Position numbers and translations under genes: made by a program
Origin: Luteitalea sp.
GTDB taxonomy: Bacteria > Acidobacteriota > Vicinamibacteria > Vicinamibacterales > Vicinamibacteraceae
Direction: 5' to 3'
Assembly: GCA_009377605.1 (NCBI GenBank)
Contig: WHTT01000011.1
Location: 1 to 62,999, forward strand
DNA length: 62,999 nt
Part shown: positions 7,559 to 51,095 of the stretch, one piece after another
Layout of the letters: each line of letters starts with the position of its first letter
How positions within the stretch are numbered: the stretch's first letter is position 1
The notes under the pieces: generated by a model
Database searches by the model: none
Told to the model about the DNA's origin: nothing
The model's input: only the letters and a program-made list of their open reading frames with translations

Positions 7559-10432
7559 TTACCAGTCGAACTTGACCCCGAACCGTACGATACGCGGTCC
7601 GACGATGTTCGACGGGAACAAGTAACGCGTGCCGGAATTCCAGTTGATGTTCTGCTCCGTGTTGGTGTTGGTGATGTTGTACAAATCGATCAGTGCCGTC
7701 AAGCGTGCGCCCACCAGCGTGATTGCCTTTTCGACTCGCAGGTCGATCAAGTTGATCGAGTCCTGACGCTGGGTGTCGATGGGCTCGGCCAGAATGCGCT
7801 GGTTTCCGTAGTTCAGCGCCACCTCAAACGTACGACCGAAGGGCTGGCCGGATTGATAGCGGTAGCTGGGCGAAAAGCGCAGATCCCAGGGACCATCGTA
7901 CGTGCCATTGAGCTTGAAGGCCCACGTCTGGAAATTGAACCGCCCCTCGTCCGTGTTGATCAAGTCGGTCGGCGTCGTCGGCAGGGTCTCCGACCGCAGT
8001 GTGTTCCCGAAGTAGCCATCGTCGAAGTCGTAGTTCCAGCGGTACGAGAAGGCGGCAATCATCGACCAACGGCCCGAGAGGCGGCGCGTCGCGCTCAGCT
8101 CCCACGTCCAGAACTCACTGATGCCGTCGACGTTCTCCGTGCGATCCACGGTTGGCAGCTCCAGGGCCGCCGCGCTGAGATCGAACGCCTGGAACGTACC
8201 CTCGTCGTCCGGCGTGCGGCTATCACCGTCGGGACCAGGGTCCTGAACGGTGACCGGCACATTGTAGGCCGAGAGCGGTCTGTTCACGTTGTTCTGCTGA
8301 TATTGATTGCCAATGCGGCGGTACACCACACCGGTGCGCAGGCCGAAGTTGGCGGCAATCTCGCGCTCGAGCCAGGCGGCGACCTCACGTGTGTAGGTGT
8401 CGTCGAGATTCGGATCGAGGCTGGTCGATGCCTCACCGCCCGAGGACTGCAGAAGCGTGCCCTCTTCGCCTGGTTCCCAGAGGCCGCTGCCGTTCGGGTC
8501 GGCCCAGGCGTATCGACGGAACCAGTCGGGCGAGTTCGTGTTGACATCGCTCGCTAAACCAGTGCCCGGGTTCCACCAATACTGCCCGTAGTTCACCTTG
8601 ACGAGCGTTTTCCCATCGCCGAAGAGGTCGAAATTGACGCCGACGCGCGGTGACCACAGGTTCCACGTGAGGACATCCTCGACGGCGGAGAAGTCCAGCG
8701 TCTCGGTGAAGAAGCGTCCCGGGAGCCGCTGCTGGGCAGGCAGGAAGCTGCGATAGCGTTCGTATCGCAGGCCGAGATTGAGCGTCATGCGATTGGTGGG
8801 CTGCCACGTGTCGTTCAGGTACGACGCATACGTCCAGAGCCCGTTGATCGACTCCGTCGGCGCGCCGAACAAATACACTTCCGTCGGCTCACCGTTGTTC
8901 AGCCGCTGCAGGACATCGCCGGGGAAGCCAGATGGGTCGGAGGCGCCTGGCTGGCCGCGGATGGCCTCCGAGGTCTCTCGGAATACTTCACCGCCCATCT
9001 TGAAGTTGTGCGACCCGACCCAGCCGTTCTTGAACAGGCTGAGCGCCCCGTGCACTTGGGGGCGCCGTCGGTTCAGCGCCCATTCTCGGTTGGCGCCATA
9101 TATCAGGTTGTTGCCGGTGTCCTGGATCGAAGGGGCGTCGCTGTTCCGGTGGTTCGGCCAGTCGTAGGCGAACTGCCCGGCACGCAGCTCGAGGAAGCCG
9201 AGATCGTTCAGCACGGAGTTCCAGTCGACCTTCCACACGCCTCCCCAATACTTCTGATTCCACGTGGAGTCAGCGGTCGTATGGATCGCGGCGCTGGAGC
9301 CAATGAGATAGGTGTCGAGCCGGTTCGGTTGCTGTTTGCGGCCCCACTGCGTGTAGGCGACGATCTTATTGTTCGGGCTCAGCGTGTAGGTGGCCTTGCC
9401 CGTGACGTTGTGGAGCTTGGTGGTGAAGATGTCTGCGGGAAAGTTCGGGTACCGCACGTCGATCTGCTGATTGCGCACCGACGAGTACCACCACAGCTTG
9501 TCTTTCTGGATGTACCCACCTACGTCGGCATTCACATCGTAGTACCGATTCAAGCGGTTCGTGTCTTGGGCGTCGAGGCCGCCGCCGCCCTGGATACCCC
9601 GGGCAATCTGGCTGTCGTCGATGTTGGTGGCCTGCACACCCTCGGTCTGGTAGTCGACATAGACGCGTCCGTGATACGCGTTGCCGCCCGACTTCGAGAC
9701 GAAGGCGCTGGCGACGCCGGGCCATCCCATCTCCGCGCTGTGCGAGCCGGTTCCTACCGAGACCTCCTCGAAGGAGCCGTAGTCGTAGTAGAAGCCGGCT
9801 GCACCGGTTCCTTCCGTCATGACCATGCCTTCGACCATGGGCCGATGCTGATCAGTCTTGGTGTCGTACGCCGCGTACGGTGTTTGCGTGCCTGCGGCGC
9901 TGCCGCCGACATCGACGCGCTGGAGCTGGACGGCAGGTGAGGCTCCCAGGATTGACCACAGGTCACGCGCGTTCGGCAGGGAGCTGAGCTTCTCGGCGTC
10001 GAAGTTGGTCACGATTCGCGACGCCCGCTGGTCGACGACCGGCGCCTCGCCGGTCACGGTCAGCGTCTCCTCGAGCGTCGAGATCTGCATCTGCACATCA
10101 ATGGTGGCGTTGAACCCGACGCCCAGGCGCTGCCGCTCACGCACAAGCGTCGCGAAGCCTTGCAGCTGGTAGGTCAACGTATAGTCACCAGGCGGCAATT
10201 GAGGCAGTCGATACGCGCCGCCCTCGTTCGTCACCACGGTTCGCTCACCCTGCAGAACCGGGCTGGTAGCCGTGACCAGGGCACCGGGTAGCGCAGCGCT
10301 GCTTTCGTCGGTCACCCTTCCATCGATTGCCGCCGTGGTGGCGCCGGCCGACTGCGCCTCCACCTTTTCCGCCAGCACCGTGCACAGAACAACGAGACAC
10401 ACCCCTACTCGGACGTGAGTCAAGCAGATCAT
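7559..10432 (-). CDS. TonB-dependent receptor with carboxypeptidase-regulatory-like domain
   Basis: This outer-membrane receptor of 957 residues has a signal peptide (CLVVLCTVLAEKVEAQ), a carboxypeptidase D regulatory-like beta-sandwich (about 30-115), a plug domain (about 120-260; the AYDTKTDQHRPMVEGMVMTEG region) and a long beta-barrel ending in a typical aromatic C-terminus (VGPRIVRFGVKFDW). A GAGGAGG ribosome-binding site precedes the ATG. It lies upstream of the secreted M20 amidohydrolase on the same strand (80-bp gap), which suggests uptake of the substrate or product of that enzyme. No SusD partner is present, as is usual for these Acidobacteriota receptors. The ligand is unknown. Confidence 0.9.
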   Translation of the reverse strand: MICLTHVRVGVCLVVLCTVLAEKVEAQSAGATTAAIDGRVTDESSAALPGALVTATSPVLQGERTVVTNEGGAYRLPQLPPGDYTLTYQLQGFATLVRERQRLGVGFNATIDVQMQISTLEETLTVTGEAPVVDQRASRIVTNFDAEKLSSLPNARDLWSILGASPAVQLQRVDVGGSAAGTQTPYAAYDTKTDQHRPMVEGMVMTEGTGAAGFYYDYGSFEEVSVGTGSHSAEMGWPGVASAFVSKSGGNAYHGRVYVDYQTEGVQATNIDDSQIARGIQGGGGLDAQDTNRLNRYYDVNADVGGYIQKDKLWWYSSVRNQQIDVRYPNFPADIFTTKLHNVTGKATYTLSPNNKIVAYTQWGRKQQPNRLDTYLIGSSAAIHTTADSTWNQKYWGGVWKVDWNSVLNDLGFLELRAGQFAYDWPNHRNSDAPSIQDTGNNLIYGANREWALNRRRPQVHGALSLFKNGWVGSHNFKMGGEVFRETSEAIRGQPGASDPSGFPGDVLQRLNNGEPTEVYLFGAPTESINGLWTYASYLNDTWQPTNRMTLNLGLRYERYRSFLPAQQRLPGRFFTETLDFSAVEDVLTWNLWSPRVGVNFDLFGDGKTLVKVNYGQYWWNPGTGLASDVNTNSPDWFRRYAWADPNGSGLWEPGEEGTLLQSSGGEASTSLDPNLDDTYTREVAAWLEREIAANFGLRTGVVYRRIGNQYQQNNVNRPLSAYNVPVTVQDPGPDGDSRTPDDEGTFQAFDLSAAALELPTVDRTENVDGISEFWTWELSATRRLSGRWSMIAAFSYRWNYDFDDGYFGNTLRSETLPTTPTDLINTDEGRFNFQTWAFKLNGTYDGPWDLRFSPSYRYQSGQPFGRTFEVALNYGNQRILAEPIDTQRQDSINLIDLRVEKAITLVGARLTALIDLYNITNTNTEQNINWNSGTRYLFPSNIVGPRIVRFGVKFDW

Positions 10433-14529: not shown

Positions 14530-15237
14530 ATGCAGAAACGCATTCTCATCGTGGAAGACGACCGAGCGCTGGCGAGGGTGATGAAAGACAACCTCGCCTT
14601 CGAGGGGTTCCAGGTGGAGGCTGTGGCCGACGGTCATGCGGCCGTTGGCAGCGTGCGATCGTTTGCTCCGGATCTCGTCTTGCTGGATCTCATGTTGCCA
14701 GGCTGCAGCGGCTTCGACCTGTGCGGCGTGCTGCGAGAAGGGGGGAGGGTCCCGATTATCATCGTGACGGCGCGCGGGCAACGCGTCGACAAGCTGAAGG
14801 GGCTCAATCTCGGCGCCGATGACTACGTGACGAAGCCCTTCGACGTGGACGAGCTACTGGCGCGGATCCGCGCGGTCTTGCGCCGGACGCGCACCGTCGT
14901 TGGTCGGCTGGCATTGGGGGACGTTCACGTCGATTTCAAAGCGCTCAGAGCCACCAATGCAGGCGCCGAAATCCACCTCACGCACCGAGAGTTCGAGGTG
15001 CTCCGCTACCTCGCTGAGCGCGAAGAGCGCGTGGTGTACCGGGACGAGCTGCTCCGTGAAATCTGGGGCTACCTCGACCCGCCCACGACGACACGCTCGG
15101 TCGATCATGCGATCGCCAGACTCCGCAAGAAGATCGAGATCGATCCAGCGCATCCCCGGTTCGTGAGGACGGTCCACGGCGGAGGCTACTGCCTGACGGT
15201 GACGGGCGAGGCGTCTGGTCCAAGCTTGATGGGCTGA
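14530..15237 (+). CDS. OmpR/PhoB-family response regulator
   Basis: This protein has 235 residues. The receiver domain (about 1-118) begins MQKRILIVEDD, with the phospho-acceptor Asp in LVLLDLMLPG, a switch Thr in IIIVTARG and Lys in DDYVTKPFD. The winged-helix DNA-binding domain (about 135-228) includes LTHREFEVLRYLAE and the FVRTVHGGGYCL wing. The start at 14530 directly matches the family N-terminus. Its 3' end overlaps the convergent PHP-like gene by 52 bp. It is the partner of the preceding kinase. Confidence 0.92.
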   Translation: MQKRILIVEDDRALARVMKDNLAFEGFQVEAVADGHAAVGSVRSFAPDLVLLDLMLPGCSGFDLCGVLREGGRVPIIIVTARGQRVDKLKGLNLGADDYVTKPFDVDELLARIRAVLRRTRTVVGRLALGDVHVDFKALRATNAGAEIHLTHREFEVLRYLAEREERVVYRDELLREIWGYLDPPTTTRSVDHAIARLRKKIEIDPAHPRFVRTVHGGGYCLTVTGEASGPSLMG

Positions 15238-17552
15238 ACCAGCGCCCCGTTGGTGGCAACGTCCCAGGCCGCGAACCGCACCCACTTCTTCCCGGACGCG
15301 TCGAAGGGGACCTCGAAGCGGTGCTTGCCGAACGGCGGTAGATGCGTCGTGGAGATGATCTGCCGATCGACGGTCTGCCCGTCCCCCCAGACCACTTCGA
15401 CGAAATCGAGCGGGAACGTCCACTCGACCTCCGCCGTAATAGTGCGCCGGTCACCGCTTCCCTCGACGGCGTAGAACGGGATCAGCACTTCACCCGACGT
15501 CACGAAATACTCGCGGCGCTTCAAGGCGTCGATGATCGGACTCATGTCGTCGACCGTTGGTAGCTGATCGAGCTTCACGTAGTTGACCGGCGACATGCCA
15601 TACGTATCGTCGTAGGGAGGTTTGCCACGCTCACCGATATCGGAGCGCGCCTCGGAAATGGCCAGCTGATACTTCGGCGGCGTGGGTAGATCGGCCACCC
15701 AGTTGTTCAGCTCGTCCCACAGACCCAAGCAGCGATACTCGCACAGCCGCTTCTCGGAGGCATCGACGCCCATACCCCAGCGATAACCCATGCCGCGGTA
15801 GTTCTCATGCGTGAAATGGGCATCCCGCTTGATGGCGTCTGGAAAGCCGGTCGACCCTTTCGAGCGCGGATGAGGCATGAAGATCAGCGCGTTCTCGCGC
15901 TCGGTCATCTCCATCATGTCCGCGGCATTCCCGAGGTTGTACACCTGGCCGTAGACGGGATGCTCTTCGACCAACGGCTGGTCTGCGGCTCGCTTCGGGA
16001 GCCAGAACACCGGCTTGGACAACAGCAGGTCGTGATGTCCACGCAGGTCGACGCCGGTATTCTCGCGGTGCGGCATGATCAGGAAGTTCTTGTCGGAGTG
16101 TCGCCGGGCGGCATCGTAGTAGGCGGCCAGGCCCTTCAGGGACTCCTCGCCTCGCCCACCGGGGCCGTCGATGATCCCATAGATGTCGATGCCGGCGGCC
16201 TTGGCGGCCTCGATGTCGTTGAGCCGGTTGTCCAGACCGCCCAACTCTCGCAACCGCCGCACCATCCCAACGTGATAATGCGTGCCCATCACCTTGTAGC
16301 CGGGGAGCGGCTTGAAGCGGTCCCCGTGCGTGAAGGCCAGCGCCGACTCCGTCGCCGCTGGAGCTGCCTCAGGGCTGACGTAGAAGAACACGGGCATCTG
16401 CTGCCACGTGCCCGGGCGTGCGCTGTACAGCGCGAAGTTGTGGTAGAACTCCGGGTCCTCTTCCTTCTCCGCCTGTCTCATCCCAAAGGAGAAGCTCGAA
16501 TCGCTGTCTTTCCGGTACCAGCTATAGCCCAGGTTCTGCTCCGATTCGCGTGCCCAGTAGAAGCTGTGCGGCGGTGGGAACGCGGCAATGGAACCGCCCT
16601 CGAGCTCCGCGGCGATTAGACGATTGCTGCTCCACACCGTCGCCGGCGCCTCGTTGACGGTGCCGCCAAACCGATAATCCTGCTCTCGATTGGTGAGATC
16701 GCGCCACACCACGCGCGACGTCGGTTGAATCGGAAGACCCTTGAGCCCGCCGTCGTACTTGAACGCGGCGGAAGGATGATCGGTCTTGGCGATTACCACT
16801 TGGCGAATCAGGTTCGACCCCTTGAACACGTCATACTGCAACCGGCCGGCAAAGATCCCGAGCTCGACGCCAGGAAAGCTGATCTCGAGCCGCGCGCCGT
16901 TGGTCTTGACCTCGCAGCCATCCGCTCGATAGGCGGCCGCGGCGCGGGTGACCTCGTCGGGCTGGCGTGGCAGCCCGGGCTGGCCGTGAAGGCCTTCGTA
17001 CGGGGGAACCGACGTCGAGTGGCCCGGGGGCCGTTCTCCACTTCCCTCGACGTAGAGTGGTGCGTCCCAGAAAGCCTCCCACTTGACACCATCGATCATC
17101 TCTTTGGTGAGCCCGCCACCGCGCGCGGCCAGGTTGACCCACTCGGTCCCCCGCTTGTCTTGATCGTCCCAGGCGTCGAGGATCTCCGGTGTGACCTCGA
17201 CACCGAGCGCATCGAGCGAGTCCGGTCGCAGCTGTTGCGCTGTCACGCGCCGCACACCGGAGACCACGCGAAACTCCGGCGTCACATCGCGCGCCAAAGT
17301 CCTCCACTGGCCCCCTTCGGGACGAATCGCCAATTCGCGTATCGTCGGTGTGCCGCGCTCGATCGCGAAGCGTAGCCTCAGCTCGGCACCATTGTCCCCG
17401 TCCCACGTGACCACGAGCGCGTCTGCGGTGGCGCTCGCCGTGAGGCCAGGCGCGGCCGTGTACTCCGTCAGGCCGCACATCGAGGGCTCCGCGGATGCGG
17501 TCGACGCGGCGACCGCGAGCGCGACCGTGACGAGTTGAGTGCGTATCGGCAT
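15186..17552 (-). CDS. secreted PHP/CehA-like protein (paralogue 1)
   Basis: This secreted protein has 788 residues from the ATG at 17552 (GGAGAG just upstream), with signal peptide VALAVAASTASA. The C-terminal half (about 430-790) has a PHP/CehA-like metallohydrolase pattern: HYH in MGTHYHVGM, IIDGPGG, an HREN segment, RGHHDLLL and MPHPRSKGST, then a beta-rich tail. It is a clear paralogue of 48765..51095. The motif that reads SDFH in the paralogue reads IDGP here, so one probable metal-binding His is absent. It follows a broken TonB receptor on the same strand, as the paralogue does. The reaction is unknown; CehA-type proteins are phosphoester or ester hydrolases. Confidence 0.7.
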   Translation of the reverse strand: MPIRTQLVTVALAVAASTASAEPSMCGLTEYTAAPGLTASATADALVVTWDGDNGAELRLRFAIERGTPTIRELAIRPEGGQWRTLARDVTPEFRVVSGVRRVTAQQLRPDSLDALGVEVTPEILDAWDDQDKRGTEWVNLAARGGGLTKEMIDGVKWEAFWDAPLYVEGSGERPPGHSTSVPPYEGLHGQPGLPRQPDEVTRAAAAYRADGCEVKTNGARLEISFPGVELGIFAGRLQYDVFKGSNLIRQVVIAKTDHPSAAFKYDGGLKGLPIQPTSRVVWRDLTNREQDYRFGGTVNEAPATVWSSNRLIAAELEGGSIAAFPPPHSFYWARESEQNLGYSWYRKDSDSSFSFGMRQAEKEEDPEFYHNFALYSARPGTWQQMPVFFYVSPEAAPAATESALAFTHGDRFKPLPGYKVMGTHYHVGMVRRLRELGGLDNRLNDIEAAKAAGIDIYGIIDGPGGRGEESLKGLAAYYDAARRHSDKNFLIMPHRENTGVDLRGHHDLLLSKPVFWLPKRAADQPLVEEHPVYGQVYNLGNAADMMEMTERENALIFMPHPRSKGSTGFPDAIKRDAHFTHENYRGMGYRWGMGVDASEKRLCEYRCLGLWDELNNWVADLPTPPKYQLAISEARSDIGERGKPPYDDTYGMSPVNYVKLDQLPTVDDMSPIIDALKRREYFVTSGEVLIPFYAVEGSGDRRTITAEVEWTFPLDFVEVVWGDGQTVDRQIISTTHLPPFGKHRFEVPFDASGKKWVRFAAWDVATNGALVQPIKLGPDASPVTVRQ

Positions 17553-17595
17553 GTTCTCTCCAGCCACTGAGTGTCACTTCAAGTGAGCTTTGGGC

Positions 17596-20541
17596 TCAGA
17601 AGCTATAGCTCCCACCGATCCGTACGATGCGTGGCGCTATCATACCGGACACGTTCGATCCGCTGACGAAGCCAAAAGTGGGGCCGGACGCCCATGTCAG
17701 ATCGACGGCAGCGCTCGAATTGAACACGTTGAACAGGTCGACGTTCAGGGTCAATCGCTGCCCGCGCGGAAGGCGGAGCTCCTTACTCCCGCGCAGATTG
17801 GTCAACGCAATCGTCGCACCGTTGCTCGATCCCCACGGCTCCAGTTGGACCGTCACGGTACTGAGCTGACTGAGACTGGGGCCGCCATCGGGATCCTCCT
17901 CGCGGAACTGGTAGGTGCGCGCCCCTCTCGTGCCATTCCTGGCCTGCATGAAGCCAGCAATCTGAATGCCGGCTGGCAACTGATAAGCGCCACTGAGATT
18001 CATCCCCCACTCCCACGTCTCATCCCGCGGGAAGTGGTCATCGTTGGGCGTTTGAAAGTGGCGCTCGATCCACCGGTGGTTCTTGAGGCCCCAGCCCGCC
18101 GCTTGGACCATCCATCCGCTCGACAGGCGTTTCGTGATCGACGCCTCGATGGTGTGGAACCGGTCGACCTCGCCGCTGTTGACCTGCATGTTTCGGACGA
18201 ACTCCGCGCCCTGGAACGCGGGATCATAGTCGTAGATCGTCACCAGCCCACCATCATCTGCCGTCTCCACGATGCCGTCCGGCCCTGGATCACGACGGGT
18301 GAGCGAAATGTTGTAGGCCTCCCGCGGGCGCAGCATGTTGATGCCGCCGAAGTCGTACAGATTGACACGACGCCGGAAGACATAGCCGACGCGCACACCC
18401 AGATCACGTGCCACCTCCTTCTCGAGGCTCGCCGTTGCTTCTGTGGTGGTCGGTTGCTCGAGGTCGGGGTTGAGGATCCGATTGCTCGCACCCGCGATGG
18501 AGAGGAAATCCGGACCGTTCGGATCGAGGTTCACCTCACCCGGCGTGTAGTTGTCGTTGCCGTCCAGATCCCGCCACCGGTACCGCATTTGAACCAACGC
18601 ATTCTGGTTGAAGTTCCCCACATCCGAGTCCCGGTACAAGTCGTTGTAGAGGCCGTACGTGCCCTTGACCACCGTGTTGTCCGCGATCTCCCACGACAAT
18701 CCCACCCGCGGCAGCGCCCGCTGCCAGGTCACCACGTCGACCGTCGGGAAATCTCCCGCGGGGAAGAGCTCTGGAAACTGCGGGCTGGCCGGCTTCGACT
18801 GCGCCGGCACGAATGCGCTCTGTCGCTCGAAACGGAAGCCCAGGTTCGCGGTCAGCCGATCGGAGACACGCCACGTGTCCGTCAGATACCACGCGTACAC
18901 GTTGACCCGGTTGCGCGGCTCGATCGGGTAGTTCCGAAACTCGATCTCAACGGGTCGATCGGGCACGTTCCAGACACGGTCATAAATGAGGTAGTAGTTG
19001 CCATGCGGGTGATTCAGGGATCCACTGCCGTGGGTATACCGGTACATTGTCCCGCCGGTCTTCAGCTCATGGCGCCCGCCAAAGGATCCCTCCGGGAAGA
19101 AGCTAAAGCTCCCATCGAGCTGCCAGTTGTCGCGCGGGCGCTGGTCAGAGGACTCGTGGCCGCCAGTGCGCACGCCGGTCTCGCGATCCAGGCGGCTCGG
19201 AAACTCGGCACCCCGGTAGATCGAGGGGCGCATTGCCGAGTAGTCCACGAAGTAGCCGCCGTAGCCGCCAACGACGTTCACCAGCATCTTGCGATTGAGC
19301 GTACTCTGGAGCTCGAGCTTCCTTACCGATAGCGAGTGGCTTTGGTCACGCGTGGCTTCGAGCGGCCGGAGGCGGCTTCCGTCCCTTTGGGGCTGCGCCT
19401 TCAGGCCCCGCTGGTACACGCCGATGAGACGGTTGTTCTGCGAGAGCTGCCAGGATACTTTGGCATTACCCTGCGTCAGCAGGTTGTTGTAGTCGGCGAG
19501 TGGCTCGTCGCCCGTGAGATAGGTGCCGTCCGGCCCCGGATCCGACACGAAGCCCGCGAGGCCGCTCTTCCGATGCTGCCGGCTGAACCCGCCATAGAAC
19601 CACAGCTTGTCTCGGATGATGCGGCCACCCAGATCGCCGGCGACGTCGTAGTGGAACCTGAGCGGCTCCGTATCGCTCAGGCCCTGCGCCTGCAGCTCCG
19701 GGGTGAGGTTCTTGCTTTGCAGCCGCGGCCCTTGATACGACCCTTCGTATCGACCGTGGAACTCGTTGCCGCCGGACCGGAGCACCGCGACCATGTGAAG
19801 CCCCGGCGTGCCAACCTCTGCGCTCGTGCCGGATGTCGTGACCTGCACGTCTTCCAGGCCAAAGTAGTTGAGGTAGACTGCCGTGTTCGGGTCGGCGCCG
19901 GTGGTGATATTGATGCCCTCGACCTGAATCTTAGGCGTGGCAGCGACGCCCTAGGTGGACATATCCGGGCGCTCGGCCATTTGACTGCCGCCGACGTCGG
20001 GGGACTCCGCTCGAGACACGCCGGGCGCCATCTCGACCACTGCTTGCAGATCGCGGCCGCGCGGGATCGTTTCGAGCGCCTCCTCCGTGAAGTTCGCGCT
20101 CGACCCGGTGGACGACAGGTCCACGACCGGGCTCTGGCCGCTGACCATCACAGACTCCTGCAGCTGGCCCACGCCCATCGTGGCGTCGACGCGCGCCGTG
20201 AAGCCAATGGTGATGCGCAGCTCATCGCGGATGATGGTGTTGAAGCCCGTGAGCTCGAACGTGAGCCGGTAGATGCCGGCCGGGAGGTCCCCGAAGCGAT
20301 AGCTACCGCTCTCGTCTGTGACCCCCACCGTCTGGCCCACCTGCAGCGCCGGGCTCGACAACGTCACCGTAACGCCGGGAAGGGTGGCGTCCGTGTCATC
20401 CTTGACGATGCCGTGGATCGTGCTTGATGCAACGCTCTGCGCAGACGAGGCCCGTGCGCCCCCGACGAGGCTCGCGACGAGCACCATGGTCAGCACGACC
20501 TTCCGAGTCGACCTGTCGCGCCTTCGACGCTGTGCACCCAT
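17596..20541 (-). pseudogene. TonB-dependent receptor interrupted by one in-frame TAG
   Basis: The start at 20541 has AGGAG upstream. The N-terminal part encodes a signal peptide (ending ASSAQS), a carboxypeptidase-regulatory-like domain and the start of the plug (SGQSPVVDLSSTGSS). It ends with ...DMST and TAG at 19951-19953. The same frame then continues without a break as GVAATPKIQVEGINITTG... through a complete barrel to APRIVRIGGSYSF. The stop falls in the plug segment where relatives usually have an aromatic residue before Gly, so a single-base nonsense change explains it. Without suppression only a periplasmic fragment is made. It is the paralogue of 46907..48757 and belongs with the PHP-like gene downstream. 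Confidence 0.85.
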
Positions 20542-20784
20542 GCGTGTTCTCCTGGCTGGCACGTCCTACCCGCCGTCGCTCGCGGGAATCGAGAACGACG
20601 TCGGTAGCCCGTGAACGGTCCGTTCGACTGGACAGTGGTGGACACAGTTATAGCGTCCGTCGTCGCTTCGGTTTGTCGCAATTTGTCTCGGGCGTGGAAG
20701 TGCCGACACAACATACTGCGACAAATGAATGGTGACGAGTCGTATATACATGCGTCGCGAGAGCACATCGACCGAGACGACATC

Positions 20785-41906: not shown

Positions 41907-44900
41907 TCAACGCGCTGGCATCGCCTCGGCGAGCCCTTGCCTGGCGATCTCGGATGCTGGATCGACGGTCAAGGCCTCGGCGAAATATCGGGCGGCGCCT
42001 GGGCGATCGCCTGCCTCCAATTCCAGTGTGCCGAGGTTGGCGTACGTCGCCGGGTCGCGCGGATTGGCCGCGAGCGATGCCTGAAACGCCGCCTGTGCCT
42101 CGTCATGTCGTCCGAGCTGTGCCAGGCTGGCCCCAAGGAGATTCTGAGCCTTGGCGTGGCTCGCATTCTGGGCGACGACTGCCTGCGCTTCCTGCACCGC
42201 GAGGTCCAGCCGGCCCTGCATGAACAGTAGCGTGCCCGCATAGTAGCGTGCGGCTTCGCTCTGTGGGGCTTCGGCCTGCAGCTGCGCAACCACCGGCGCA
42301 AGCCGGTTCACGTCTCCGAGATCGGCGAGGACCGACGCCAGTTGCTCCTGCGCCTCGACGTTCCGCGGGTCCGCCTGGAGGACGGAGAGCGGAAGACGCA
42401 TGGCCTCGTCGTATTCCCCCCTGCCAGCGAGCAGCCGTGAAAGTGCGAGCTTGGCGGGCACCCGCTTCGGCTCGGTCGCCAGCTCGCGCAAGCGTGCTTC
42501 GACGCCAGCTCTGAGACGACCCTCTCCCGCTGCGCGTACCACGCCCTCGAGTGCTCGCGCGTCGTCCGGATCGACGTCGAGCGCGCGCATGAAGTCCTCT
42601 GTGGCGGACGCGTAGGCTTCCGCGTGGATGAGCATCCAGCCACGGTCCCGCCAGTCGGCGGCGGAGGCGGTCGCCAGCGCTCGTTCCACCACGTCGGGGC
42701 GATCTGTCGCCCGGGCCAGCGCCCGGAGCCGAGCGGCGTTGTCCGGCGCTCCCCCCGCGTAGATGGTCCGTGGCCCGGAGAACTCGAGCGCTGCTCGATC
42801 ATCGGTCTGCACCGGCGCACCTGCCGTCCACGCCCTCAACGCCGATCCTTCGGCGATGAAGAGTGAGAGCAGACTGAAGGGGTGGAGCGCGCCGACACCC
42901 GCGAGGTCCTCCGCGACGCCCGGGCGGTGCCAGGCATTGCTGATCCGGCTCAGGTGAGCGGTCAGTGGTCCGCGGGATCCGACCAGCAGCACATCTCCCT
43001 CGCCCACCAACCACAGCGTGCCATCCGGAAAGACCGAGAGAAACGTGGCGACGATGGACTTCAGATCTGCCGTGCTGATGTCGTACGTGTGGGCCCACTG
43101 ACACAGCACGCCACCCGGTGCGAGCCGCGCGCGCGCAGCCTCGAAGAACTCCCGTGTGAAGAGCGACGCGATGCCCGCCATCCACGGATTGGACGGCTCC
43201 GACACGATCACGTCGTAACGTGTCGTCCCGAGGAGCAGGTGCGTCCGGCCGTCTCCGAGGATCAACCGAGTACGCGGGTCGGAAAGCGCGCCATGATTCT
43301 GGCGCTCGAAGAACCGTGAGGCCTCGACGACACCCGGCGAGAGCTCGAGCATCGTGGCGCGATCGATCGGATGCCGCAGCGCCGATCCCAACGTGACGCC
43401 ACTGCCGAGTCCGATGATGGCGACGTTCCTCGGAGTGGGATGGAGCAAGAGTGGCAGGTGCGCCAGCACTCGCTGGGTCAGCATGTCGCCGGCGTCGGAG
43501 GCGTCGACCTTGCCGTCGATCGCGAGGGACCTCGTTCCAGCAAGGTCGCGTACGGTGACGGTCGCAGCCGCGCCTTCGCGGTAGTAGCGCAGCTGGCCCG
43601 CAGTGAGCGTGCTCTCGAGGTTCGGCCCCCGAAAGAGCGGCGCATACTTGTACGCCCCGCTCGAAAGCAAGAGCGGATCGCCTGACGGCATCCACCATGC
43701 CCACACGAGCACCGCAACCGCCGCCATCGCGGTGACGGTTCGCCCGCGTCGTTTCACGCCTCCCGCCAGGGTGACCGCGACAGCCCCGCCTACCGAGACG
43801 AGCGCCACGAGACGAACGGTGCCGTGCAGGCCGAGCCAAGGGATCAGCATGAAGCCCGCGAGCAGCGATCCGGCGATGGCGCCGGACGTGTTGACCGCAT
43901 AGATCATGCCGAGGTCGGTCACCAGTGATTCGTCGCGCGACGTCGCCGCGGCAACTGCGAACGGAAACGCAATGCCAAACGCAACCGTCATGGGCACCAG
44001 GATTGCCGCGACGATGAGCACCTGCCACACCAGCACGTTGCCAAAGGCAGCATCCGGGCGCGCGACGACGTCGGCGATCAGCAGGAGTCCACGGTTCAGC
44101 GTGCCTGCGGCGGCCATGGCGAGCGCAACCGACACGACGAGGCACACGGCGAGCCCGCTGAGCGGGTCGCGCGTCCGAGCGGCGAGGCGGGAGCCGATCG
44201 CCGCACCGAGCGCGATACCGGCGATGAAGCAGGTGACGATCACGCTGAACGCGTAGGTGGTCGGGCCAAGAACGAGCGCCAGCAGCCGCGTCCAGACCAC
44301 CTGCAGCGTGAGCGACGAGAAGCCTGAGACGGCCAGCGCGAGCGCGGCCAGCCGCGGCCGAGCAGTCGTCACACGAGTCGCGCGGGGGGACACGCCGCGC
44401 CGACGCGGCCCGACGCCCGGCCGCCGCGGGGCTGCTGATCGCGCCGCGCCCGTCCACGTCGCGGCGCCGCGTCGTCCAATCGCCAGCGCACCTGCAGCCG
44501 CGCTTACGTTCAGCGCGACACCCACCCACGTCGTGCCGCTGAGGCCAAGGCTCGGCAACAGCAAGAAGCCGGCCAGCACCGCACCACTCGCGGCACCGAC
44601 GGTGTTCGCGGTATAGAGCCAGCCCGCATCGGTCGCCGCGCTGGACGTCCCGCGGACCATCCATCGCGAGGCCAAAGGAAACGTCGCCCCCATGACCGCG
44701 GCCGGCGCCGACAGGACCACCAGGCTGGAGACGACGCGAAACAACCCAAAGATCGCGCCGTCGCCGTTCGCGTATGTGATGACGAGCAGCGGATGCAGCG
44801 CCGCCAGCTCGAAGGGCACGAGGAGCGCGAGACCGGCGATCGCCGCCTCGCAGCCGACGTAGGAGGTCAGCGCTTGCTTGGGGCTCAAGCGGTTGCCGAG

Positions 44901-45077
44901 GCGTCCGCCGAGCGCTGCACCCACCGCGAGGCCGCCCATGAATGCCGCGAGCACGGTGCTGGCCGCGGCGACCCCCTGTCCTAATTGGAGCGCGAGCAGT
45001 CGTGTCCAGGTGACTTCGTAGACGAGCGCAGCCGCCCCCGACGCGGCAAAGACGAGGAGGAACGAACCCCGAAGCAT
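41907..45077 (-). CDS. membrane-fused spermidine synthase-like protein with TPR repeats
   Basis: This protein has 1056 residues. Two sets of TM helices each start with a related motif (GAAALVYEVTWTRLLAL near 15; GFSSLTLQVVWTRLLALVLG near 250), giving about 14 helices. Next comes a polyamine-synthase-like Rossmann domain (about 530-740) with VAIIGLGSGVTLGSAL, MLELSPGVVEA, LILGDGRTHLLL and YDVIVSEPSNPWMAGIASL. The C-terminus (about 800-1050) contains TPR-like repeats (LDVDPDDARALEG, AYANLGTLELEAGDRPGAARYF-type). Such fused proteins are common in Acidobacteriota and Planctomycetes; whether they make polyamines is unproven. It is divergent from the lyase gene. Confidence 0.85.
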   Translation of the reverse strand: MLRGSFLLVFAASGAAALVYEVTWTRLLALQLGQGVAAASTVLAAFMGGLAVGAALGGRLGNRLSPKQALTSYVGCEAAIAGLALLVPFELAALHPLLVITYANGDGAIFGLFRVVSSLVVLSAPAAVMGATFPLASRWMVRGTSSAATDAGWLYTANTVGAASGAVLAGFLLLPSLGLSGTTWVGVALNVSAAAGALAIGRRGAATWTGAARSAAPRRPGVGPRRRGVSPRATRVTTARPRLAALALAVSGFSSLTLQVVWTRLLALVLGPTTYAFSVIVTCFIAGIALGAAIGSRLAARTRDPLSGLAVCLVVSVALAMAAAGTLNRGLLLIADVVARPDAAFGNVLVWQVLIVAAILVPMTVAFGIAFPFAVAAATSRDESLVTDLGMIYAVNTSGAIAGSLLAGFMLIPWLGLHGTVRLVALVSVGGAVAVTLAGGVKRRGRTVTAMAAVAVLVWAWWMPSGDPLLLSSGAYKYAPLFRGPNLESTLTAGQLRYYREGAAATVTVRDLAGTRSLAIDGKVDASDAGDMLTQRVLAHLPLLLHPTPRNVAIIGLGSGVTLGSALRHPIDRATMLELSPGVVEASRFFERQNHGALSDPRTRLILGDGRTHLLLGTTRYDVIVSEPSNPWMAGIASLFTREFFEAARARLAPGGVLCQWAHTYDISTADLKSIVATFLSVFPDGTLWLVGEGDVLLVGSRGPLTAHLSRISNAWHRPGVAEDLAGVGALHPFSLLSLFIAEGSALRAWTAGAPVQTDDRAALEFSGPRTIYAGGAPDNAARLRALARATDRPDVVERALATASAADWRDRGWMLIHAEAYASATEDFMRALDVDPDDARALEGVVRAAGEGRLRAGVEARLRELATEPKRVPAKLALSRLLAGRGEYDEAMRLPLSVLQADPRNVEAQEQLASVLADLGDVNRLAPVVAQLQAEAPQSEAARYYAGTLLFMQGRLDLAVQEAQAVVAQNASHAKAQNLLGASLAQLGRHDEAQAAFQASLAANPRDPATYANLGTLELEAGDRPGAARYFAEALTVDPASEIARQGLAEAMPAR

Positions 45078-45368
45078 TCACAGCCAGCCTAGCAGAGAAG
45101 GAGGCATCTTGGCTGCTGCGACAGCTTGCGACATCGGTTGACCGAGGGCGGTCCTATGATGGGCGGACTTCGAAGTCCAATGGCACACTTATTCCTAGAC
45201 GAGTCCTTAACTCGCCGATCGCGCCGTCGAGCGGGCATTGGTGTCGTGCGCGAGAGTCTTGCCGAGCGAGGACCCCACCGGCAGACAGCAGCGAAAAGCG
45301 GAGCCAATGTGCACGGGGCCGGCGATCTCGTCGGCACGCACACGACAGAACCTTGCAGGAGAACCATC

Positions 45369-46859
45369 GTGAACACCTCGAGAGTGATAGCCGTTACCGG
45401 GGCGCTGGTGTTGATGGCATCCCAACTGTTCGCTCAATCTGACGAGCCTCGGGACGCCTTCCATTTCATGACGCTCGCCAACAAGGCGCAGATCGTCATG
45501 CTGGCCGAACAGCAATTGATTCCGCGAGCCGAGGCGCAGCGCATTGCGATGGGCATCGGCGAGATTGCCCGAGCGGAGGCTCGCCCGGGAGCCGCTCGGC
45601 CATCGGACTACCTCAGGTTCGAGAAGCAGCTGATCGAGAAGGCCGGCCCGGAGGCGTCGAAGCTTCATATGGGCCGAAGCCGGAACGACCTCGGCGCGGC
45701 CATGAATCGCTTGTTGATGCGGGACAAGGCGCTCGAGGTTCTGGACTCGCTCTTCGATGCACGACAGGCGCTGCTGAGTCTGGCGGGCAAGCACGAGAAC
45801 ACGATCATTGCCGCCTACACTCACGCGGTCCAGGCCCAACCCATCTCACTCGCTCACTATCTGCTGGCCCTGTCGTCCGCGCTCGAGCGCGACTCGCAGC
45901 GTGCCCGAGAGGTCTACCACCGTCTCAACCACAGCCCGCTGGGGGCCGGTGCACTCGGCACCTCCGGATTTGCTCTCGATCGCGAGCGCCTGATGGAGCT
46001 CGTGGGGTTCGAAGCGATGCTCGAGAACTCGTACGACGCGATCAGCATTTCGCCCGCGGATAGCAAGGCCGAACTGGCTGCGGTGTACGCCATCTCCTCC
46101 CTCGCGCTGGGCAGATTCGCTCAGGACCTGGTCGTCGCCTACGCGGATCCCACGCCCGGCCTCTACCTCTCTGACGAGATGACGGGAAGAAGCAGCATCA
46201 TGCCGCAGAAGCGGAATCCCGGGCCAATCGAATCGCTGCGGCGCACGGCCAGCAGCGTGCTGGCCCGGTCCCAGAAGATCTTCCTGATGGCCCACAACAC
46301 CACCATGGGCGAGGTCAGCGATGTCCGTTATTACCTCAAGGACGAGATTCTGGAAGCCAGCGACGAGGCTACGGAGATGTATCGCATTCTCCAGCGCATT
46401 CTCGACGGTCTGGTCGTCAATCCGGAACGGACGCTCGAAACGGTGAATGCGGACTATTCCACGATGACCGAGCTAGCCGACGCGCTGCTCAGAGGCGCCG
46501 GCGTGCCTTTCCGGATTGGATACAACTTTGCGTCGGCGATCACGACCTACGGACGCTCGAATGGGAAGACGCCCAGTCAGATCTCGTATGCCGAGTACAG
46601 CCAGGTCTATCAGGAGCTGAACCAGGGAGCCCGCTTCCCCCTGAGCGAAGCACAGCTTCGAGAGGCCATCGATCCCAGGACGATGGTCGCCAACCGTCGG
46701 GGCCGCGGGGGGCCACAGTCTGCCGAGGTGCAGAGGATGCTCTCCGAGCACCAAAGCCGTCTGGCTTCTGACCGAGGCTGGGTAGCTGGCGAGCGGCAGA
46801 AGATGGCCCGTCACGAAGCGAACCTAGACGCCGTGTTCCTTCGACTGGTAGGGCCGTAG
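45369..46859 (+). CDS. exported argininosuccinate lyase-like (aspartase/fumarase superfamily) enzyme
   Basis: This protein has 496 residues from a GTG at 45369 (AGGAG 8 bp upstream), followed by a clear signal peptide (VIAVTGALVLMASQLFAQ). Superfamily signatures are intact: KLHMGRSRNDLGAAMNRLL, AYTHAVQAQPISLAHYLL, SPLGAGALGTSGFALDRERL and the fumarate-lyase loop GRSSIMPQKRNPGPIE (about 273-288). Cytosolic ArgH would not carry a signal peptide, so a biosynthetic role is unlikely. Relatives that act on C-N bonded aminopolycarboxylates (EDDS lyase type) are an alternative. It is followed 48 bp later by a truncated TonB receptor and a PHP-like gene, suggesting periplasmic processing of an imported compound. 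Confidence 0.75.
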   Translation: MNTSRVIAVTGALVLMASQLFAQSDEPRDAFHFMTLANKAQIVMLAEQQLIPRAEAQRIAMGIGEIARAEARPGAARPSDYLRFEKQLIEKAGPEASKLHMGRSRNDLGAAMNRLLMRDKALEVLDSLFDARQALLSLAGKHENTIIAAYTHAVQAQPISLAHYLLALSSALERDSQRAREVYHRLNHSPLGAGALGTSGFALDRERLMELVGFEAMLENSYDAISISPADSKAELAAVYAISSLALGRFAQDLVVAYADPTPGLYLSDEMTGRSSIMPQKRNPGPIESLRRTASSVLARSQKIFLMAHNTTMGEVSDVRYYLKDEILEASDEATEMYRILQRILDGLVVNPERTLETVNADYSTMTELADALLRGAGVPFRIGYNFASAITTYGRSNGKTPSQISYAEYSQVYQELNQGARFPLSEAQLREAIDPRTMVANRRGRGGPQSAEVQRMLSEHQSRLASDRGWVAGERQKMARHEANLDAVFLRLVGP

Positions 46860-46906
46860 CTGCAAGGCCTCGCCAAACGTGCAGGAACGACGCCCGACGC
46901 CTGAGG

Positions 46907-48757
46907 GTGTCGACCCTGAAGCTGTCGTATCAGTTGAGCCAGAACAACAAGCTGATTGCCGTCTGGCAGCCCAGCGTCAAGCTGCAGCCGCAAAACGGCG
47001 CTGGCCGCTTCCGTCCGCTCGAGGCGACACGCCACTATTACAACCCGACATCTATCTACAAGGGCGAGATTCAGAGCATGGTCACGCCGCGCCTGCTGGT
47101 CAACGTGGTTGGCGGCTACGCCGGGTACGTCGCCGACTACTCCGCACCGCGTGCCGGCTTCATGAGCCCGGACAATCCGAGCCGGCTCGACCGCGAGACC
47201 GGCTTACGGACCGGCCCGCACGAGGCCTCAGAGCAGCGCCCGCGCGACCGCTGGCAGGCGGACGGCAGCGTCAGCTTCTTCCCGGAGCGGTTCCTCGGCG
47301 GACGACACGAGATGAAGGCCGGCACCTCGCTCTATTGGGAGCACGCCGGCAGCGGCCGGCTCAATCACAGCAACGGTAACTACATGCTCGTTTACGACCG
47401 CGTGGGCGAGCGGTCTAGACAGGCGAGCGAGATCGAGATCATCAACTCGCCGATCGAGCCCTCGAGCTGGGCGACGGTGTACGCGGCGTATCTCAAGGAC
47501 ACGTGGCGAATCAGCGAGCGACTCACAGCGAACCTTGGTCTCCGCTTCGAGCGGCAGCACTCGTACTTGCCCGCGCAGTCGAAGGAGGCCAGCCCGTTCT
47601 TCCCGGAGCTCTATCCGGCTGGGAGCTTTCCGAAGCTGGACGTCTTGACCTGGAACGCCGTGATGCCGCGCGCCGGTCTGGCCTGGAATCTCAACCCGAA
47701 GACGGTCGTGAAGGGGACGTTCGGAGTCTTCGTGGACGCGATTGGAGACGAGTTCGCGACCGATTACAACCGAAATGCGCTGTCCACCGCGGTGTTCCGA
47801 TGGCGCGACACGGACGGCAACGACAACTACACGCCGGGTGAGGTGAGCCTCGACCTCAACGGGCCCGACTTCCTCAGCATCACGGCGGCGAGCAACAATA
47901 TCCTCACGCCCAACCTGAAGCAGCCGACCACGACCGAGGCCACGGCGAGCTTCGAGCGGGAGCTGCTGGAGAACCTGGGCTTCCGCGCGCTCTACGTCTT
48001 CAAGCAGCGGCGTCGCCAGTACGACGAGGTGAACGTCTTGCGGCCGCACAGCGCCTACGACATTCCGCTCACACGCCGTGATCCCGGGCCGGACGGCGTG
48101 CTCGACACGGGCGATGACGGCGGAGCGGTCACGATCTACGACTATGACGCGGCGCTCCGCGGCGCCGAGTTCGTCGGCAGCCAGCGCGTCAACAGTGACG
48201 ACCCGGATTCCTGGCAGTCGATCGAGCTCACGCTGACGAAGCGATCGACGGGCCGCTGGAGCGCGGTGGCATCCTTCTGGGCGATCAAGAACGACGTCTG
48301 GCTCGATCCGCTGCGCGAGACGCCCAACACCGAGTACTTCCCGAAGAATCAAACATGGGAGTGGGCGTCGACCGTCAGTGGCACGTACCGGTTACCGGGC
48401 GACGTGATGCTCAGCGGGTTTCTTCAGGCGAAGCAGGGCAGCGTGGGAGCGCGCACCAACATCTTCCGCGCGGTCGACCCTGATGGCGGACCGCCGCTCG
48501 CGCAGCTCAGCACGGTCACGCTGCGTCTCGAACCGTATGGCACGACACACGGGCCCGCCCTCAAGCTCGTGAATCTTCGGGCCAGCAAGCGGTTCCCCTT
48601 CGGCGGCAAGCGGATCGACGTCGACTTCGATGTCTTCAACGTCTTCAACTCCGGGACGCCTACGGCCCTCACGTATGCCTCCGGTCCAACGTTCGGCTAT
48701 GCCACCAACGTCGTGCCGGCACGTGTCGCGCGGGTCGGTGCGCGCTTCTCCTTCTGA
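46907..48757 (+). pseudogene. TonB-dependent receptor lacking its N-terminal third
   Basis: About 616 residues of barrel align throughout with the receptor at 17596..20541 (for example SYQLSQNNKLIAVWQ, SRLDRETGLRTGPHE, LTANLGLRFERQ, QPTTTEATASFERE, RRDPGPDGVLDTGDDGG) and end in VARVGARFSF. The signal peptide, regulatory-like domain, plug and first strands (about 330 residues) are absent; the break is at about 46905, close behind the lyase stop. It cannot form a gated receptor. It is immediately upstream (7 bp) of the second PHP-like gene. Confidence 0.8.
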
Positions 48758-48764
48758 GGTTCCC

Positions 48765-51095
48765 ATGCGACTGTTCTTAACCGCGATCACCTTGTTCGTT
48801 GCGGCCACCGCATTCGCGGATCCGCTCAAATGCGACCTCTCCGGCTACACTGCGCTCACCGGCCTGACGGCGGCGGTCGACCAGGACACGCTGGTCGTGA
48901 CGTGGGCCGGCGACGAGGAGAGTGAGCTGCGCGCGCAGTACGGCATCCAGGGTGGGCAGCCCGTCATTCGAGAGCTGGCTATCCGCAAGCAAGGCGGCCA
49001 ATGGGCGCCGCTTGGTCGAGATCTCGTGCCGGAGTACTACGTGGTCAGTGGCGTACGGCGTATGACCACACAACAGGCGCAACCCCTGCGGCAGCTCGGT
49101 GTCGAAATCACCCCAGAAGTGATCGAGCGCGAGAAGTGGTATGCGTTCTGGGATGCACCGCTCCTCGTACCGGGAACACCAGAGTCCCTGCCGCCCCGGC
49201 AGGGTCAGAAGCCAACCCGTGGTGGCCAGGCCTCGGGCCGGCAGGCGCAGGGCCGGGGGCAGGGTGGCACCAGCGCGGCGCTCGGTCTCCCCGAGGGCCG
49301 TGTCTTCGGACTGCCGCGGACGCCGGAGGAGGTTCGACGCGCCGACGCCTCGTTTGCGGTGACGTCGTGCACGGTGAAGACGGATGGCGCGCGGATCGAG
49401 GTGACCTTCCCCGGCTTGTCGATGGGGATCTTCGCGGGCGACTTACGCTTCACGGCCTACCGCGGCACGCGCATGTTCCGGATGGACGCCATCGTCAAGA
49501 CCGACGAGCCCTCGGTGGCCTACAAGTACGAAGGCGGCCTGCGGGGCTTCTCGACGAGCGTGCTGCCGCGCGTGACGTGGCGCGATACTGGCGGCGACCC
49601 GCAGCAGTACGAGTTCGGCGGCATCGAGAACGACGCGCGGGTCAACGTCAAGGCCAAGAACCGTGTCCTGGTGGCGGAAGGGAAGGGTGGGTCGGTGGCG
49701 ACCTTCCCCTCGCCACACCGTTTCTTCTTCACCCGCGAAGTGGACACCAACCTCGGGTACGTCTGGTACCGAAAGGACAGCGACAGCCAGTTCGGAATAG
49801 GCGTCAGGCAGGCTGAGGGTGAGGAAGTGGTGCGGTATCTCGAGAACTTCGCGTTGCACAACGCGCCGCCCGGAACCTGGCAGCACATGTCGGTGTACTT
49901 CCTCGCGAGTGCCGACGCGGCCGAGCCGACGCGAGATGCGGCGATGGCTTTCACGCGGGGCGACCGCTTCAAAGCAGTGCCCGGGTACAAGACGATGGTG
50001 AATCACTTCCACCTGCGGTTCACCGAGCGTTTACGGGCCGCCGGATCGCTCGAGCACACGTTTCAGGATCTGATGGCCATGCGCGCAATCGGCATCAACA
50101 TTGTCGGCCTCAGCGACTTTCACGGTGATCTACGGGGCAACGACACGGGGCCGGGGAGGTTCGAAGACCAGCGGGACTATGCGCTGGCATCCCAGAAGGC
50201 CTCCGACACGGACTTCCTGGTCACACCGTGGGAAGAGCCGAGCGCCTACTTCGGCGGCCATTACAACGTGATGTTCCCGAAGAACGTGTATTGGACGAAG
50301 CGACGGGACGAAGGGCAGCCGTTCACTGAGAGCCTGCCAGGCTTCGACAAGGTCTACCACACGGGCTCGACCGACGACGTGCAGCGGATGCTCGACGCGG
50401 AGGGCGGTTACTGGTTCCACGCGCACCCGCGAACGAAGGGAACCACGGGCTACCCGGAGGCGATCTTCGACAAGCCTTGGGTCAAGAACGATCGGTATCT
50501 CGGCATTGCCTTCAAGCCGGGCATGGGCGAAGACCTGTCCCAGCAGCGCATCTGCGAGTATCGCTGCTTCGATGCGATCGACACGATGAACAATCTCTAC
50601 GCCAACGCCGGCTTGCGACCCAAGTATCTGATCGGCGACGTGGACACCTATCAGAAGGGCCCCGAGGACGACCTCTATCCGGGCCATCCCGTCAACTACG
50701 TAAAGCTGGACCGGCTTCCGGGCCCCGCGGACGATTGGAGCCCGATCCTGAAGGCGGTACGGAGTGGCGATTTCTGGGTCACGACTGGCGAGATTCTCAT
50801 CAAGAGCTACGCGGTCGAAGGGAGTGGAGCGCAGCGGACCATCAACGCGGAGCTGGAATGGACGTTTCCGCTCGAGTTCGTGGAGGTGGTCTGGGGAGAT
50901 GGAAAGAAAGTCGACCGGCAGGTGATCCGCGCGACCGACTTGCCACCGTTCTCCACGAAGCGGTTCAACCTGCCGTTCGACGCGACTGGGAAGGCCTGGG
51001 TGCGATTTGCGGCGTGGGATTCGGCGGGGAACGGCGCATTCGTCCAGCCGGTCTGGTTGACCGCGCAGGGCCAACAGACGTCCTCGTCGCGCTGA
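48765..51095 (+). CDS. secreted PHP/CehA-like protein (paralogue 2)
   Basis: This protein has 776 residues with signal peptide FLTAITLFVAATAFA. It is a paralogue of 15186..17552 along its whole length, apart from a Gly/Gln/Arg-rich linker near 145-185 (PPRQGQKPTRGGQASGRQAQ) that is specific to this copy. PHP-type positions are complete here: HFH in MVNHFHLRF, GLSDFHGD, TPWEEPSAY, GGHYNVMF and FHAHPRTKGTT. A C-terminal beta domain (VVWGDGKKVDRQVI) follows. It lies 7 bp after a truncated receptor. Metal-dependent hydrolysis of an ester or phosphoester in the periplasm is inferred. Confidence 0.7.
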   Translation: MRLFLTAITLFVAATAFADPLKCDLSGYTALTGLTAAVDQDTLVVTWAGDEESELRAQYGIQGGQPVIRELAIRKQGGQWAPLGRDLVPEYYVVSGVRRMTTQQAQPLRQLGVEITPEVIEREKWYAFWDAPLLVPGTPESLPPRQGQKPTRGGQASGRQAQGRGQGGTSAALGLPEGRVFGLPRTPEEVRRADASFAVTSCTVKTDGARIEVTFPGLSMGIFAGDLRFTAYRGTRMFRMDAIVKTDEPSVAYKYEGGLRGFSTSVLPRVTWRDTGGDPQQYEFGGIENDARVNVKAKNRVLVAEGKGGSVATFPSPHRFFFTREVDTNLGYVWYRKDSDSQFGIGVRQAEGEEVVRYLENFALHNAPPGTWQHMSVYFLASADAAEPTRDAAMAFTRGDRFKAVPGYKTMVNHFHLRFTERLRAAGSLEHTFQDLMAMRAIGINIVGLSDFHGDLRGNDTGPGRFEDQRDYALASQKASDTDFLVTPWEEPSAYFGGHYNVMFPKNVYWTKRRDEGQPFTESLPGFDKVYHTGSTDDVQRMLDAEGGYWFHAHPRTKGTTGYPEAIFDKPWVKNDRYLGIAFKPGMGEDLSQQRICEYRCFDAIDTMNNLYANAGLRPKYLIGDVDTYQKGPEDDLYPGHPVNYVKLDRLPGPADDWSPILKAVRSGDFWVTTGEILIKSYAVEGSGAQRTINAELEWTFPLEFVEVVWGDGKKVDRQVIRATDLPPFSTKRFNLPFDATGKAWVRFAAWDSAGNGAFVQPVWLTAQGQQTSSSR

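Follow-up and report, generated by a model that had tools for sequence, protein, structure and literature searches.

An exported branch of the argininosuccinate lyase family in Acidobacteriota and on plasmids of Pseudomonadota, predicted to be periplasmic and distinct from ArgH

What would a lyase of the argininosuccinate lyase family do in a bacterium that sends it out of the cytosol? We have investigated this question for a gene located in a 62,999-nucleotide stretch of Luteitalea sp. (contig WHTT01000011.1 of assembly GCA_009377605.1), hereafter called the window, whose source assembly comprises 382 contigs and is 97.5% complete. The initial annotation of this DNA had proposed that the enzyme degrades imported aminopolycarboxylate chelators, EDDS or aspergillomarasmine-like, rather than making arginine. 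The features considered in the window were the following.

41907 to 45077, minus strand: divergent neighbour, fused membrane/spermidine-synthase-like protein with TPRs (Pfam, NCBIfam).
45357 to 45361, plus strand: Shine-Dalgarno-like AGGAG, 7 nt upstream of the lyase GTG (sequence).
45369 to 46859, plus strand: the window lyase, argininosuccinate-lyase family, exported; 496 aa plus stop, GTG start.
45369 to 45434, plus strand: predicted Sec-type signal peptide of the lyase, residues 1-22, likely cut between LFA and QSD (read by eye).
45678 to 45689, plus strand: motif 1, SRND, residues 104-107; SRQD or SSQD in other exported members.
45819 to 45824, plus strand: motif 2, TH, residues 151-152; TN in pseudomonadotal members.
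46191 to 46217, plus strand: motif 3, catalytic-serine loop SSIMPQKRN, residues 275-283 (alignment).
46311 to 46328, plus strand: substrate-side stretch, residues 315-320; E and R, versus Y and Q in 21/21 ArgH.
46907 to 48757, plus strand: TonB-dependent receptor, C-terminal barrel part (OMP_b-brl_4 from profile position 159).
48765 to 51095, plus strand: secreted CehA/McbA-like metallohydrolase (NCBIfam 35.4 bits, sub-threshold against a cut-off of 80; signal-like N-terminus read).

The limits of the lyase open reading frame were exact, from the GTG at 45369 to the stop codon ending at 46859. Its product contained the Pfam domains Lyase_1 (E 2e-33) and ASL_C2 (E 3.1e-9), both above their cut-offs, and the superfamily motifs HMGRSRND, YTHAVQAQP and SSIMPQKRN; the aspartase/fumarase signatures claimed for it were thus confirmed, the signature regions as well as the catalytic serine loop. 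The top-scoring NCBIfam model was argH (TIGR00838), with 276.8 bits (276.6 in the genome search), which is below the equivalog cut-off of 279.5. Two models from coenzyme M synthesis, XcbC and XcbD, gave 195 and 55.5 bits, respectively. A relative found in another MAG (L006, matching genome G513 of the window's family) was 77% identical over the best segment. Enzymes of this ArgH-type superfamily are homotetramers in which active sites are shared between subunits. An AlphaFold model of the lyase monomer, obtained from two sequences, was poor (pLDDT 50.5).

We have then examined the export signal. The N-terminus of the window lyase, MNTSRVIAVTGALVLMASQLFA followed by Q, has a short basic start and then a hydrophobic stretch, with the cleavage site placed by eye; a scripted A-x-A cleavage pattern was not matched by this protein, and the cut site is given as a reading. 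The best 10-residue mean hydrophobicity was 2.72, a value reached in 0/2000 draws from the mature lyase and in 12/2000 shuffles. L006 has a signal peptide of its own, and a signal-peptide-like start was seen in all 26 members of the exported clade defined below, 25 in frame and one (the G507 exported lyase) in a neighbouring frame. The in-frame N-termini comprised 22 of the 24 rows that were scored, CabM1242, and L078 and L079 by reading. Two of the 24 rows fell below the hydrophobicity score, CabM1242 and L068, and on re-examination the signal peptide of CabM1242 was located slightly upstream of the annotated start. The hydrophobicity of the exported rows was matched by 2 of 30 controls (L018 and L026), both before the likely start codon. 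The clean Sec signal noticed in the initial annotation is therefore borne out by the N-terminal reading and by conservation across the clade, and export of the window lyase is well supported by sequence. The predicted signal peptide is at variance with a cytosolic location, a trait of ArgH.

A phylogeny against ArgH placed the window lyase outside the ArgH clade. In a tree of 74 rows, 26 exported proteins, 18 of them acidobacterial and eight from plasmids of Pseudomonadota, formed one clade outside ArgH (support 98/100), and the pseudomonadotal branch was nested among the acidobacterial exported rows (100/99). The ArgH clade itself received 84/69 in this tree. In a tree of 29 rows, the 12 exported rows were recovered with 100/100, as was ArgH without the window lyase. 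Several sequences had been dropped from the 74-row tree: L098, an ArgH fragment with an in-frame stop; L100, L101, L102 and L105, which repeat loci already in; L077, which nearly duplicates another P. marcusii row; and, as close relatives of rows kept, L014, L017, L018, L022, L030, L036, L087, L090, L092, L093 and L097. L098 (G496:C145:823-2169), the ArgH of G496, is interrupted by a single in-frame TAG, which reflects either faulty assembly or a damaged gene.

The lyase is also not the sole argH candidate of its genome. The window's own genome encodes a true argH on contig C4, which scored 517 bits against 276.6 for the window lyase (cut-off 279.5). Likewise, an ArgH above 500 bits was found in 15 of the 17 genomes having the exported form, one of the 15 being G496, whose gene has the in-frame TAG; the other two are draft MAGs that are 94% and 85% complete.

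We have compared active-site residues in an alignment of 26 exported, 21 ArgH, 33 cytosolic ArgH-like and two EDDS-type rows, using the numbering of the window lyase. S104, T151, Q157, S275, S276, M278, P279, K281 and N283 were invariant in 26/26 exported rows; the TH motif at 151-152 contains the position that we take to hold the catalytic His in ArgH. All 21 ArgH rows had D at residue 285, Y at 315 and Q at 320, and none of the three was present at its position in any of the 26 exported rows. The window lyase has G285, E315 and R320, and the exported rows as a whole have G/I/V/T at 285, E/M at 315 and R/K at 320 (Arg or Lys in 26/26), the 320 column being the least sure, with an alignment gap at residue 318 in 24/26 exported rows. 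The corresponding residues were V or S, D, and E in the cytosolic ArgH-like rows and D, Y and R in EDDS lyase. In ArgH, the Y and Q of the YNKDxQ motif presumably bind the arginine part, and the D belongs to the NPD motif. The reading of the window lyase as a true ArgH was thus discarded on the basis of the tree, the lost ArgH residues and the second argH, in agreement with the initial annotation. Taken together with the predicted signal peptide, we consider it highly probable that the enzyme is exported and is not ArgH.

As to what the enzyme does, a C-N lyase label is reasonable given its family. We lean slightly towards a C-N lyase acting on an N-substituted aspartate of some kind and, to the same modest degree, towards a periplasmic enzyme that would split some succinyl-substituted compound with release of fumarate. 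The motifs bear on how far such a reading extends. Three kinds were found in the exported clade: SRND/TH in the window lyase and L006, SRQD/TH in other Acidobacteriota (one row having TY) and SSQD/TN in Pseudomonadota. Three positions are hence altered in the pseudomonadotal members, with S in place of R, Q in place of N and N in place of H, so that a single reaction for the whole exported clade is not assured.

This divergence is also what would speak for a periplasmic lyase that eliminates another group, such as a thiol, a sulfonate-bearing group, a phosphate or an enol, from a succinate-like compound. Compatible with such chemistry, SSQD and TN replace SRND and TH in the pseudomonadotal members, and all 12 A1 members matched, besides argH (best E 9.6e-86), the models for XcbC (5.1e-63) and 3-carboxymuconate cycloisomerase (1.5e-23). 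The XcbC and XcbD relatives presumably act on groups other than the one we assume for the window lyase. The window lyase and its 77% identical relative, however, retain the ArgH-type SRND and TH, and argH is the best-scoring model for the former, which makes this alternative rather unlikely for the enzyme studied here.

The chelator proposal deserves separate consideration: the protein would be a periplasmic EDDS-type lyase that degrades EDDS, aspergillomarasmine or toxin A, whether to feed on them or to remove their metal. In its favor, the best solved match of the window lyase was EDDS lyase (PDB 6g3d, E 7e-62, residues 31-485), ahead of the best ArgH structure (E 2.5e-47), and the basic residue at 320 resembles the R of EDDS lyase and not the Q of ArgH. 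The 6g3d enzyme, from Chelativorans sp. BNC1, had been named argininosuccinate lyase by its depositors, and among the same-sequence entries 6g3h is called EDDS lyase (PMC12363623). That paper gives R112, N113, Q159, N288, D290 and Y320 as substrate-proximal residues (PMC12363623). By that list, three of the six are kept in the window lyase (R112, N113 and N288), whereas Q159, D290 and Y320 are replaced by H, G and E, which counts against this substrate. In the 29-row tree, a joint clade of the exported proteins and EDDS lyase, the latter on a long branch, was neither recovered nor rejected (AU p 0.122), the 29 rows having been picked after the first tree, so that AU p-values apply to groups named afterwards.

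The proposal also depended on uptake through the neighboring TonB receptor. The hydrolase gene described beside the lyase is indeed present; the receptor gene, however, encodes only the barrel part. The product of 46907-48757 lacks approximately the first 340 residues, including the signal peptide, N-terminal domain and plug, and it aligns from residue 339-344 of an intact 957-residue receptor encoded at 7559-10432. No remnant of the receptor 5' part was found when sought in 44900-46906. We have scanned the neighbors of 14 of the 18 exported places, that is, all except the window, G425:C118, G507 and G508, by tblastn with four receptor queries; in 13 of the 14, no TonB receptor was found within 1.5 kb. 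Upstream of L006, at a distance of 115 bp, there is a receptor that is complete but of another kind. With a truncated receptor in the window and a receptor near 1 of 14 scanned loci, the argument from TonB-coupled uptake did not hold.

The other neighbors were conserved only among close relatives, and the annotated ones had no metal-uptake gene in common. Elsewhere the exported lyase genes adjoin an NHL-repeat protein (L060), a rhomboid (L038), an amidohydrolase (L072), a DUF4394 protein (L074) or other plasmid genes; two P. marcusii plasmids share a branched-chain amino-acid ABC transporter and an amidase as neighbors. Inference of the substrate from gene neighbors was set aside, as no conserved operon names one. 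Considering the replaced residues, the absence of joining in the tree and the neighborhood together, the link to EDDS or aspergillomarasmine was not supported; we regard an EDDS-type lyase as unlikely, and EDDS-like chelators as an improbable natural substrate.

Some further observations on these neighborhoods may be recorded. The product of the divergent gene at 41907-45077, 1056 residues long, joins membrane segments to a spermidine-synthase-like domain and TPR repeats; only pieces of this neighbor were found in G515, a genome of the same genus. The window holds a second pair of receptor and CehA/McbA-like hydrolase without a lyase (17596-20562 and 15186-17567, minus strand); between the paralogous pairs at 15186-20562 and 46907-51095, the receptors are 55% and the hydrolases 46% identical, and the receptor at 17596-20562 is broken into two open frames (19848/19951). 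The metallohydrolase of 48765-51095 had no match at E 1e-40 in six related genomes; with this and the fragmentary G515 neighbor, an empty-site comparison yielded nothing. A Met-zincin-type protein (DUF4953/DUF5117/DUF5118) adjoins the exported lyase in the same orientation at L055, L056 and L063 (G511, G509 and G510, respectively).

The picture of uptake coupled to a lyase fits the cytosolic paralogues better than the window lyase. All nine scored cytosolic ArgH-like lyases passed the argH cut-off. Among their 33 loci, 25 had a TonB receptor or a transporter no more than 1.5 kb away, with a sodium:solute symporter near 12, an amino-acid permease near 11 and a TonB receptor near 13. These cassettes look like uptake-and-lyase units for N-substituted aspartate. 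A TonB receptor and an amino-acid permease lay both within 1.5 kb at 11 of the 33 loci. Cytosolic cassette loci were L042:5754-11617, L012-L014, L016, L018, L020-L022, L027, L030 and L033 and, in the window's own genome, L041 (G000:C98).

We have investigated the distribution of the exported form as well. At E 1e-75, 17 of the 162 genomes from the window's order contained it; it was absent at that level from the same-genus genome G515 and from four other family members, G125, G325, G367 and G514, which indicates a patchy presence. Phylum-wide, matches at 1e-60 occurred in 51 of 396 genomes, with the exported form in G000, G206 and G237. The other phylum-wide matches that were taken up (L011-L037) had no signal peptide at the likely start, and those that entered the tree all fell in the cytosolic clade. 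The pseudomonadotal branch was represented by 14 plasmid records, 13 of them 64-73% identical to the remaining one, the Comamonadaceae query, and a scan of viral contigs returned three weak matches (27-32%). Comparison of the window lyase with its 77% identical relative yielded dN 0.17 and dS 1.95 (NG86; dS near saturation), with a dN/dS of ~0.09. This supported that the window lyase is under purifying selection.

These data bear on the concern that the locus is an artefact, a decayed or chimeric product of metagenome assembly without a working gene. Such an origin could be suspected from the 382-contig assembly, from the abutting receptor that misses its 5' third, and from the G507 sister gene with its signal peptide in another frame. 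It is nevertheless very improbable in view of the low dN/dS against another MAG and of a clade that recurs in the order and on plasmids. Least probable of all is an ArgH with a chance hydrophobic N-terminus: the score less than 3 bits below the argH cut-off, the passing score of the G513 relative (288.4 bits against 279.5), the modest ArgH support in the 74-row tree and the failure to find an ArgH above 500 bits in the G513 MAG (94% complete, 830 contigs, so that the missing argH may be a gap) are outweighed by the separate 100/100 groups, by the loss of ArgH-specific residues, by the second, true argH and by the AU tests on these later-named groups (exported and ArgH as one clade, p 0.026; ArgH with the window lyase and L006, p 5e-78, a constraint that also splits the exported clade).

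Returning to a periplasmic lyase for a succinyl-substituted compound, we infer the following course of events. The Sec signal peptide would carry the protein through the inner membrane as a soluble periplasmic enzyme, which would fold there, presumably into the tetramer of its superfamily, and use the conserved serine-loop mechanism. A base would take a proton from the carbon beside a carboxylate in a succinyl moiety that resembles an N-substituted aspartate; beta-elimination would then expel the leaving group, most probably an amine, and free fumarate for uptake, in what would be a catabolic role. As the pocket is altered on its non-fumarate side, argininosuccinate would not be the substrate, and on present evidence EDDS would not be either. 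The Arg or Lys that replaces the invariant ArgH Gln would match a leaving group bearing an additional carboxylate. We suggest, tentatively, that an exported branch of the ArgH family in Acidobacteriota and Pseudomonadota may dismantle, within the periplasm, natural aspartate derivatives that bind metals or are otherwise succinylated; if so, only fumarate and the free amine would need to be imported.

With a member in the periplasm, this chemistry would have a new location; such enzymes might supply robust lyases for biocatalysis and would offer a testable entry to the use of N-substituted aspartates by soil bacteria. Automatic annotation labels such exported proteins argininosuccinate lyase, which hides the branch: the 14 plasmid records comprised six with that name, four called "lyase family protein" and four nameless in the gene table. 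A search of open-access titles and abstract openings returned, among the matches listed, no paper describing an exported member of the family as such.

Among the closest known systems are proteins of Achromobacter xylosoxidans. In a proteomics study of that species, three proteins annotated as argininosuccinate lyase had predicted Tat signals, were detected in the periplasmic fraction and, their names being accepted as they stood, were discussed as arginine-biosynthesis enzymes; a tatC mutant also yielded all 20 Tat candidates, and substantial cytosolic contamination of the periplasmic fractions was acknowledged (PMC11533796). They share with the window lyase a predicted signal peptide and an ArgH-type annotation, but they bear predicted Tat signals in place of a predicted Sec signal, and we treat kinship as a lead (PMC11533796).

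The remaining comparisons concern the family itself. EDDS lyase has the same catalytic loop as the window lyase and is not known to carry a signal peptide. The cytosolic acidobacterial ArgH-like lyases (C98 in the window's own genome) are ~30-37% identical to it and have the same SSIMPQKRN loop, and they differ by the lack of a signal peptide at the likely start, by a clade of their own (99/98) and by their own substrate-side residues. With ArgH (TIGR00838), the window lyase shares Lyase_1 and ASL_C2, the catalytic Ser and His positions and the motif residues R, N, K and N, whereas its predicted export, a score below the equivalog cut-off, a separate clade and the replacement of the invariant D, Y and Q set it apart.
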